Source: Microglena sp. YARC (taxonomy: Eukaryota > Chlorophyta > Chlorophyceae > Chlamydomonadales > Chlamydomonadaceae). Taken from it: a stretch of DNA of 64,000 bases. Under the pieces are notes generated by a model. The model was not told the origin of the DNA, made no database searches, and worked only from the letters and a program-made list of their open reading frames with translations. The translations under genes were made by a program, and so were the position numbers. The stretch covers positions 113,601,813-113,665,812 of the forward strand of contig CM039462.1 in assembly GCA_022414725.1 (NCBI GenBank), in the 5' to 3' direction. This document shows positions 35,811 to 63,945 of the stretch, in pieces (position 1 is the first letter of the stretch; every line of letters begins with the position of its first letter).

Positions 35811-38800
35811 CTACTGCTAGGCGCCAGCATGCCTGACAGAAGATGCGAGCACAACCTCCCCATGCCCTCAGATGGCTGCTGCTGCTCCACCTGTGGACAA
35901 CGGTTGACGAAGGTTGACAAATATTGATAAAAGTTGATACAAGTTTGGCCAGCACGCCTGACAGAAGATGCGAACATCACCTCCCGTGCCTCAGATGGCT
36001 GCTGAGGTGCTGCTGTTAAGGGCCCCTCCACCTGTTGACAAACGGTTGATAAAAGCTGATAAAAGTTGATACAAGTTGACCAAGTTTGACCAGCACGCCT
36101 GACAGAATCTGCGACCACAAGCACTCCATGCCCTCGGATGGATGCTGCTGCTGCTGCTGCTGCTCCTCCACCTGTGGACAAAGGTTGACAAAGGTTGAAA
36201 AAAATACAAGTTGATGAAAGTTGACCAAGTTTGACCAGCACGCCTGACATAAGATGCGAGCACAACCTCCCTATGCCCTCAGATGGCTGCTGCTGCTGGT
36301 GTTGCCCCTCCACCTGTTGGCAGAGGTTGGCAAGGTGGACAAAAGGTAGAAAGTTTTGGCATAATGTTGACAAAGGTAGACAAGGTTGGCTTAGGTTGGC
36401 TGCTGCTGTTGCCTCCCCACCTGTTGGCAAAGGTTGACTTAGGTTGGCAAAAGTTGACAAAGTTTGGCTGCTGCTGTTACCCCTCCACATGTTGACAGAG
36501 GTATAAAACGTTTTACAAAGGCTTACAAAAGGTTGATGCAGGTTGAGCAAGGTTGACAAAGGTTGGTTGCTGCTATTGCCCCTCTTCCTGTCGACAAAGG
36601 TAGAAACGGATTGACAAAGGTTGACAAAGGCTTACTAAAGGTTGATGCAAGTTGAGTAAGGTTGACAAAGGTTGGTTGCTGCTGTTGCTCTTCCACCTGT
36701 TAAGCAAGGTAGACAAAGGTTGACAAGGGTTTGGTTTGGTTACATGGTCGTATAAATATTTTTTCAATGCAGCACGAACTCAGGGCTTCCTGTTATGGTA
36801 AAGGAGAGTTCATCAGTGTTGTTTTCGTTTTATCCCCTCCTGTCACGGGTTTGAGCAAGTCCCCTATTTAGCCTATTTGGCCTAGCCTCTGGACTGTAAA
36901 CAACGCATACATAACAGAGTATACCAGCCCCCTCCCCCTCCCCCCTTCGCGCCCCTTTGGCCTTGGACCTAGATAAAATTGTGAAAGATAGTATCAGACG
37001 ACCTACCCCTGCATGCGCAGAGAGGCAGTAGAGAGTGAGAGGGCCTTACCCCCTCCCCTCCCCTCCTCTTCCCCCCCCCCCCCCCCCCCACCCCGCCCCC
37101 CGTCGCCTTGGACCTAGATGAAATTGTAAAAAAGAGTATCAGAAACTACCTACCTCAGTGCTTACCCCGGGTGAGCCAGAGCAATAGAAGTGAGGTCCTT
37201 ATACCTCCCCTCACGCGCCGGCCTCTTCTCCTCTCTCCCTCCCCCCCCCCCCCCCCACCACACACACACACCAACCCTCCCTTTGGCCTTGGAATAAGAT
37301 GAAATTGTAAAAAAGAGTACAGAACTACCTACCGAAGCGTGTCCCCTCGGGGTGAGCCAGAGCATAGAAGTGAGGGCCTGCCCCCTCTCCATCCATCAGA
37401 GCCTTCAAAGGCTGCTCTTGGAGCCCTTGCCTTCGTCCCACTCCAGAGCTTGTAGGAAGCTCGTCTTGAAGTATGTTGATCAACTTCATATGGGAATACA
37501 AAGAAAAGCATAATGCCAAGTCCGCGTGAGTTAAGGAAGCTGAATTAAGGAAACAGAATTCGTAGGGAGCATTAGTTCGTCACTTCGTCAGGGTTCGTTG
37601 AGGTTTGAAGGGTACATCAGGTTCATATATCAGGTTTGAAGGGAATGTCAGGTTTGTAGAGTTTGAGAGGGTGCGTCAGCAGGCATCAGTGTCTGTTTAT
37701 CTCTTCTCACCTGAGATACCAGAGCTCCGTGTGGAGCATTCAGTTGCGTCAGTTTCTCAGAGTTCATAGAGGTTCAAAGGGTATGTCAGGTTCATACGTC
37801 AGGTTTGAAGGGTATGGCAGGTTTGTAGATTTCGAAGGGCACGTCAGAGCATCAGTCTCTGTTCATACGTCAGGCTTGAATGGTACGCCAGGTTCGTATG
37901 TCAGGTTCTTACGTAAGATTTGAAGGGTACGTCAGGTTTGTAGAGTTCAAAGGGCACGTCAGAGCATCAGTGTCTGTTCAAACGCCAGGTTTGTATGTCA
38001 GATTCATACGTCAGGTTTTAAGGGTATGTCAGGTTTTAAAGTGTATGTCAGGTTTGTAGAGTTCAAAGGGTATGTCAGAGCATCAGTGTCTGTTTATCTC
38101 TTAACCTGAGAAACAAAGCTCGTAGGGAGCTGGTCAAAGACTCCCTCCTTCTCCTCTCCTCCCTCCTGTTCCCTCCTCCCCCTATTCCCCTCGCCTCCCT
38201 ACTCCCTTCCCACCCCCCCCCCCCCCCCTCCCTCCCTCCCTCTCTCCCTCCCTTTCTCCCTCCCTCCTATCCCCTCCCTCCCTGTTCACTCCTCCCTCCC
38301 CCTAATTACACCCTCCCTCCCTATTCCCCCCCTCCTCACTCCCTTCCTCTCCCCCCCTCACTCCCTTCCTCCCTCTTCCCTCCCTCCCTAATTCCCCTAC
38401 TCCTGTTCACCCTCTCCCTCCCCTATTCCCCTCCCTCCCCCTATTCCCCCCCCCCTCCTCACTCCCTTCCTTCTCCCCCCCCCTCACTCCGCTTCCTCCC
38501 TCTCCCTCCCTCCCTATTCCCCTACCTCCTGTTCACCTCCCTCCCCCTATTCCCTCCCTCCCTACTCCCTTCTTCCCCCCCCCCCCCCCCCTCCCTCCTT
38601 CTCTCTCCTCTCCCTTTCTCCTTCCCTCCCTATTCCCCCTCCCTCCTGTTCACCTCCCTCCCCTATTCCCCTACCTCCTTACTGCCCTTCCTCCCCCACC
38701 CCCCCCCCCCCTCCCTCCCTTCCTCCCTCTCCCTTCCTCCCTATTCCCGCTCCCTCCCTGTTCACCTCCTCCTCCCCTATTCCCCTCCCTCCTACTTCCC

Positions 38801-63529: not shown

Positions 63530-63945
63530 GAATGGAATAGGATTTGATTTGGATGGGATTGATTTGGAATAGGGTTGCTCTGCTTTATTTTCTTCTCTTC
63601 TGCCCCCCCCCCCCCCATAGAACAGCCTAACCATATCTAAAGTCCTCTTCTCCCCTGAAGAATGGGAAGGAATGGGACTGGATTGGATAGGGTTGGATGG
63701 GATGCCATAGAACAGTCCAACCACATCTAAAGTCCTCTTCTCCCCTGAAGAATGGAAAGGAATGGGACTGGATTGGATAGGGTTGGATGGGATGCCATAG
63801 AACAGTCCAACCACATCTAAAGTCCTCTTCTCCCCTGAAGAATGGGGAGGAATGGGACTGGATTGGATAGGGTTGGATGGGATGCCATAGAACAGTCCAA
63901 CCACATCTTAAGTCTTCTTCTCGCCTGAAGAATGGAACGGGATCG
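63530..63945 (-). repeat. Acceptor-side array of NTRC exon A heads
   Basis: Four copies (about 63618-63660, 63703-63748, 63788-63833, 63883-63928; period about 85-95 bp) of CATTCTTCAG|GG(G/C)GAGAAG.. to GGACTGTTCTATGG, separated by TGGGATTGGAT-type repeats. Confidence 0.95.

Follow-up and report, generated by a model that had tools for sequence, protein, structure and literature searches.

Arrays of local exon-edge copies in introns of the green alga Microglena sp. YARC

Introduction

The origin of intron sequence and the survival of genes amid numerous decoy splice sites are both poorly understood, and the DNA described here bears on both. The window is a 64-kb stretch (C1:113601813-113665812) of the 568-Mb, 2390-contig genome of Microglena sp. 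YARC, and contains an SMG9-like, an Erf4-like and an NTRC gene whose introns hold local direct copies of the adjoining exon edges, splice sites included. An original prediction, made from the sequence of the window, had described these introns as built from tandem copies of their own exon edges and had proposed a genome-wide process that duplicates DNA across exon-intron borders, inflates introns and leaves decoy splice sites behind. We examined 74 splice junctions, comprising 23 in the three genes of the window and 51 in five unlinked CCT chaperonin genes elsewhere (L042-L046, among eight CCT regions fetched); the total sample is eight genes, in an assembly with apparent indels. Our analyses show that junction-spanning copies are frequent in both sets and lie on the intron side of their own junction throughout, and that local duplication also affects DNA away from exon borders.

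Genes of the window and their exon-edge copies

Exon borders were set by hand from reading frame, homology and AG/GT signals, and a junction was scored as copied where blastn self-alignment (DUST on, E<=1e-3) returned a match spanning it by at least 10 bases on each side. One junction pattern, 4d of L042, matches three places through its copies, and the first, exon-attached place was used. A second alignment setting supplied the number of copies per junction, for which 72 junctions were examined and 35 had copies. In the feature lists, a slash within a motif marks the splice site.

We take the open frame at 35693-35832 to resemble the C-terminus of SMG9. The SMG9-like gene, on the minus strand, matches the SMG9 chain in PDB (E 9e-13) and has the following features.

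35693-35832, minus strand: last exon (open frame, acceptor CTGTCAG/GCATGC, stop by frame)
35833-36270, minus strand: three acceptor-side copies of the last exon (intron tail, AG and exon head)
39085-39151, minus strand: donor-side copy of the e5 tail and 5' splice site
39561-39779, minus strand: exon e5
39826-40052, minus strand: two acceptor-side copies of e5 (83-92% identity)
40506-41063, minus strand: five donor-side copies of the e4 tail and CATGTG/GTAAGC
41106-41242, minus strand: exon e4
41243-41261, minus strand: 19-nt direct repeat closing the e3/e4 intron, the same 19 nt as at the tail of exon e3
41355-41427, minus strand: acceptor-side copy of e4
41783-41936, minus strand: donor-side copy of the e3 tail and 5' splice site (85%)
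42265-42586, minus strand: exon e3 (its last 19 nt, 42265-42283, recur at the intron end)
42679-44008, minus strand: 12 acceptor-side copies of the e3 head, with simple-sequence spacers between them
45589-45657, minus strand: exon e2
46006-46090, minus strand: acceptor-side copy of e2, including the entire exon
48200-48311, minus strand: donor-side copy of e1
49068-49210, minus strand: exon e1 (5' end not fixed)

By the second setting the acceptor copies number 12 at e3, three at the last exon, two each at e5 and e2 and one at e4, and the donor copies five at e4 and one each at e3 and e1. The match at the e5 donor passes through simple sequence, yet the exact motif recurs at 39132 and the copy is real. 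The longest SMG9 'intron', 35833-39560, may contain unrecognised exons.

The Erf4-like gene matches the Pfam family Erf4 with E 1.3e-6 and 28.8 bits, slightly below the Pfam gathering score of 29.3. The protein read from its two-intron model agrees at 100% with P0001 of EukProt (222 aa), so the splicing is not mere guesswork, though the P0001 record may itself be a prediction. The second setting gives one copy, at the exon 2 donor.

51142-53968, plus strand: Erf4-like gene (exons 51142-51433, 51744-51916 and 53766-53968)
51434-51442, plus strand: 9-nt direct repeat GTCAATACT at the start of intron 1, recurring at 51744-51752, the start of exon 2
52067-52258, plus strand: donor-side copy of the exon 2 tail, AAG/GT and intron head (86%)

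A fragment of the last Erf4 exon (35 nt, 94%) also lies 1.9 kb 3' of the gene, at 55910-55944, followed by short tandem units. Interstitial telomere-type repeats (TTTAGGG) occur within introns of the window at 41456-41527, 52455-52480 and 52680-52715.

The third gene, on the minus strand, is presumably NTRC, a name that we take from its domain order. The window contains its C-terminal half, which matches PDB 7p9e, named thioredoxin reductase, with E 5e-64.

57506-57621, minus strand: exon E, with stop codon
57697-57800, minus strand: acceptor-side copy of exon E
58960-59015, minus strand: copy of the exon C tail
59236-59402, minus strand: exon C
60772-60883, minus strand: exon B
60900-61775, minus strand: eight acceptor-side copies of exon B
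62112-63330, minus strand: seven donor-side copies of exon A (steps of 158-170 bp, 80-100% identical)
63340-63524, minus strand: exon A
63615-63948, minus strand: four acceptor-side copies of exon A

Exon A had been predicted to carry arrays on both sides, and it does, with four copies upstream and seven downstream by the second setting; five of the seven donor units are 98-100% identical. The same setting gives eight copies at the exon B acceptor and one each at the exon E acceptor and exon C donor. The last of these had been placed at 58965 as a copy of exon tail and intron head; the exon tail is indeed copied, and the intron head aligns only at the second setting. The exon D acceptor was not counted as an array, its match running through simple sequence. 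In the part of the gene outside the window (L010), more exon copies can be seen by eye in translations.

Some further features of NTRC were observed, all but the dispersed repeat by eye. Exons D (58495-58600) and B (60772-60883) show apparent 1-nt, frame-breaking indels relative to homologues, which may be assembly errors or decay, and copies of exon B are in frame where exon B itself carries the apparent indel. Most of the exon A donor units (62112-63340) show on the opposite strand a pyrimidine-rich tract that closes with CAG and resembles a good acceptor. A dispersed repeat of about 260 bp lies in an NTRC intron at 60000-60260; at least 40 places in the genome were scored among 1202 candidates, the 39 other places being 79-85% identical, and this intron has no edge-derived copies.

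Frequency and geometry of junction copies

The arrays first described in the window were recovered where they had been placed, and 15 of its 23 junctions have spanning local direct copies, two of them through matches in simple sequence. The proposal that the process is widespread in the genome also held in the CCT genes, where 21 of 51 junctions are spanned. Together this amounts to 36 of 74 junctions, divided between acceptors (19/38) and donors (17/36). Relative to their own junctions, the 112 copies are all on the intron side and none on the other, in keeping with duplication across exon-intron borders: acceptor copies stand upstream of the exon and donor copies downstream, as tandem duplication demands. 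When six regions were compared, the three genes of the window being taken as one, none of the 74 junctions had a spanning match in any other region, which shows that the junction copies are not dispersed elements.

Of 32 introns, 23 contain edge-derived copies (9 of 12 in the window, 14 of 20 in the CCT genes), which are therefore not a peculiarity of the introns in which they were first noticed. They make up 29% of intron bases in the window and 28% in the CCT genes, and in this way inflate introns as proposed. The description of the introns as built from exon edges is nonetheless only partly right, since other local duplicates account for 44% of window intron bases (low-complexity sequence 12%, the rest 14%) and 34% of CCT intron bases.

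As expected of decoy splice sites, most copies keep the splice dinucleotide, AG in 57 of 63 on the acceptor side and GT in 39 of 49 on the donor side. These dinucleotides are kept about as well as the adjacent bases, and neither purging nor special retention of decoys is seen. Among the CCT genes, the exon 4 donor of L043 belongs to a GC-AG intron, ATCAG/GCAAGTAA.

A protein-level view was obtained from a table of 128 kinesin matches, in which 12 neighbour pairs cover a common part of the domain. Eight of the 12 have the predicted geometry, four on the donor side (exon end in common, copy downstream) and four on the acceptor side (exon start in common, copy upstream); the remainder comprise two copy-copy pairs, one nearly whole-exon copy downstream and one undecided pair.

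In-register repeats of at least 9 nt between the two ends of an intron were found in 2 of 30 introns, compared with 1 of 870 mismatched pairs. These are the 19-nt repeat of SMG9 e3/e4 (left side only) and the 9-nt repeat of Erf4 intron 1 (right side only), which are candidates for splice sites supplied by duplication.

Local duplication away from exon borders

The original prediction tied the process to exon-intron borders, and in this respect it did not stand: intron interiors, five of six random regions and stop codons are copied as well. Across 16 sequences, 577 repeat pairs were direct and 37 inverted, at offsets mostly of 100 to 1000 bp and frequently with simple-sequence spacers. The repeated tract reached at least 0.9 of the offset in just 36% of near repeat pairs, so spacers are common. 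Identities of near pairs range from about 60 to 100% (middle half 75-86%), a spread which suggests that duplication has been long-running and, in places such as the NTRC exon A donor units, recent.

Within window intron interiors, 69 to 71% of complex positions have local direct copies; window junctions in the same test gave 13/21 and 9/15, and fell under the intron also at stricter identities. The corresponding coverage of CCT intron interiors is 52 to 58%, and neither in the window nor in the CCT genes do junctions show an excess of copies over random present-day intron positions. Six random 8-kb regions had local-copy coverage of 46, 52, 35, 54, 3 and 46%, or about 40% of random DNA altogether. 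Copied tracts terminate at scattered positions around the border, without clustering at the splice site. Eleven stop-codon edges were tested, of which L012 and L017 were excluded (wrong frame); two of the nine counted, L048 and L023, have spanning copies downstream, the stop position of L023 being inferred from where its domain match ends. The Erf4 stop edge, counted as negative, is a near miss with a match beginning 7 bases before the stop, and that of L046 was hardly testable with 28 bases of sequence past the stop. The interiors of two LTR elements, by comparison, had local copies at 0.000 of 14,815 positions, and it follows that the method and the assembly do not create copies everywhere.

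Exon borders after collapse to ancestral bases

A raw comparison of junctions with intron is weighted by copy number, in that a ten-copy array fills a tenfold share of the intron, and arrays were therefore collapsed to ancestral bases. The duplicated fraction was then 0.46 for complex junctions (31/67), 0.20 for non-edge intron and 0.14 for random DNA, a junction-to-intron ratio of 2.3 (gene bootstrap 1.6 to 3.5) that rises to 3.1 at >=85% identity and 4.1 (2.1 to 5.9) at >=90%. The CCT set alone gave 0.41 versus 0.16. The share of exon DNA with local copies declines with distance from the edge, being 0.50 within 15 bp, 0.44 between 15 and 40 bp, and 0.32 between 40 and 80 bp.

Discussion

The copies are local, direct and confined to the intron side, with no matches across regions, and this points to local tandem duplication of DNA. 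We favour the reading, to which we assign a probability of roughly two in three, that the duplication is pervasive, neutral and indifferent to splice sites, exon edges acting as seeds that selection retains. The genome would undergo local direct tandem duplication throughout, with slippage during replication, unequal exchange or error-prone end joining as candidate engines. Where a tract crosses an exon edge, extra copies carrying the splice site would come to lie on the intron side, a step displayed by the junction copies themselves; splicing would presumably stay with the site joined to the complete exon, leaving the protein unchanged and the intron longer. Intronic copies could then diverge and vanish freely while selection kept the exon edge as a permanent seed, from which the intron would be refilled repeatedly, and an occasional copy may furnish a new splice site, possibly in the SMG9 e3/e4 intron. 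Edges held by selection would be over-represented as sources without any targeting. It is conceivable, and we propose it only tentatively, that introns are in a duplication-deletion steady state in which the exon edge is the sole lasting local source and the intron is replaced over and over by border copies; were this true, intron length, decoy load and new introns would all follow from one mutational process together with selection on exons.

Several observations weigh against selection-kept seeds in a pervasive process. Local copies are nearly absent from the CCT region L049 (0.02) and from L055 and L011 (0.03), and coverage of L009 is 0.00 (25% N). One kinesin pair, C1:30457694-30458053, is a near-whole-exon copy downstream with a shared start and misfits the simple geometry, and one more of the 12 is undecided. 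Stop-codon edges (2/9, a tiny sample) look to be copied less often than splice edges (36/74), and the raw CCT comparison puts junctions below intron interior, at 41% versus 58%. Seed enrichment depends on the collapsing of arrays, where the intron rate drops once edge families are left out; a third estimator, in which the copy closest to an exon serves as representative, is biased to enrichment and was not relied on for intron. Copies lose identity only weakly as they lie farther from the exon: the trend is negative in 7 of 13 arrays, and mean rho is -0.19 (permutation p 0.07). Finally, enrichment is highest in the youngest copies, which could reflect a mutational preference for exons.

Such a preference is the main rival to selection-kept seeds. 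A mutational process directed at exon edges, or at exons that are transcribed, through breaks at R-loops or at co-transcriptional splicing complexes for instance, would fit the 2.3 to 4-fold over-representation of junctions as ancestral seeds, the copied exon fractions exceeding the 0.20 of collapsed non-edge intron and the difference between splice and stop edges. Tract ends show no peak at splice sites, however, donors equal acceptors, like arrays occur in random DNA and across stop codons, and selective protection of exons predicts the same over-representation; we consider targeting unlikely, though it deserves to be kept in view. That the copies are instead functional, serving regulation as a reserve of alternative or decoy sites for splicing at mutually exclusive or cassette exon edges, might be suggested by the many intact AG and GT dinucleotides and by the NTRC exon A donor array, where five of seven units are nearly identical. 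Most copies, though, cover only part of an exon, their dinucleotides are retained about as well as the bases beside them, unit counts and spacers differ among genes, and Erf4, alone among these genes in having an independent protein record (which may be a prediction), uses the exon-attached site, so that a functional store seems to us very improbable.

Still less probable is an assembly artefact of noisy long reads. The apparent indels of NTRC exons B and D and the homopolymer-rich nature of the region would be compatible with it, but the copy pairs cover a wide range of identities (about 60 to 100%), have many different breakpoints and occur in most sampled regions, while being absent from the LTR interiors and nearly so from L049, L055 and L011. 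We give hardly any credence to RNA-mediated copying, in which pieces of spliced or unspliced transcripts would be reverse-transcribed and re-inserted: young LTR elements are present in the genome, but the copies run on into intron sequence past the splice site and are found on the intron side only (112:0), and 30 exon-exon joins yielded eight weak join-crossing matches, with no genuine spliced copy. Six of the eight were assigned by position, five to native splice sites and one to the known SMG9 e4 acceptor copy; the other two, both in L045, proved on inspection to be donor copies fading at the join.

Intronic minisatellites consist of direct tandem units with variable copy number and simple-sequence spacers, and introners are processes that shape many introns within one genome. 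Like minisatellites, the arrays here are head-to-tail direct units of variable number with simple-sequence spacers, but their units often contain exon edges. Like introners, they shape many introns of one genome, and in Erf4 intron 1 a stretch of 9 nt is duplicated at the two ends; introners, however, disperse near-identical intron sequence over many genes, whereas 0/74 junction sequences match another of the six regions compared.

The original prediction knew of no described system of this regularity, which is too strong a statement. According to the papers concerned, duplication across an intron-exon boundary produced a new intron in potato (PMC4974935), tandem repeats at exon-intron boundaries change splicing patterns or form novel introns in human (PMC2812944), repeat expansion multiplied introns in one Cryptococcus gene (PMC2395259), and tandem genomic duplication is reviewed as the sole route of intron gain shown in vivo (PMC3443670). 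From these sources, the elementary event is already known. As portrayed there, intron gain by tandem duplication resembles the present case in that duplication spans the boundary, splice signals are copied and the former exon part becomes intron, but it is a single event giving one new intron (PMC3443670), whereas 36 of 74 junctions are affected here, with arrays of up to 12, and the copies mainly lengthen introns. The human repeats share the position at exon-intron boundaries, though in a minority of recently duplicated genes (PMC2812944); here about half of sampled junctions and more than a quarter of intron length are involved, a density that we regard as unusual. In Cryptococcus, as that paper has it (PMC2395259), expansion likewise multiplies splice-site-bearing DNA inside a gene, but in the form of whole introns within one gene's repeat rather than exon edges whose copies land in the intron. 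No paper reporting such density was found in a thin literature search, and we do not claim that it is absent from print.

If the pattern holds genome-wide, it would offer very many natural tests of how the spliceosome chooses between near-identical sites, and the lengthening of introns through tandem duplication, and perhaps their origin, could be followed there. It would also mean that introns can come to seem assembled from exon borders through a simple neutral process.

Other features of the window

The remaining features of the window lie before the SMG9-like gene. At 1-4054, 81% of complex positions are in local direct repeats with units of about 218-220 bp, and no gene was identified there. 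It is followed at 4055-11094 by an LTR retrotransposon, which we take from its motifs to be copia-like; its 384-bp terminal repeats are 99.7% identical, which indicates a young element, and its frames are broken in places. A second LTR element, at 18791-28618, has 348-bp terminal repeats that are 98.9% identical and is presumably Ty3-like, judging by its motifs. Tandem arrays of 69-bp units (23 codons), which we read as leucine-rich repeats, extend over 28928-31824, next to an array of 30-bp units at 28754-30004.

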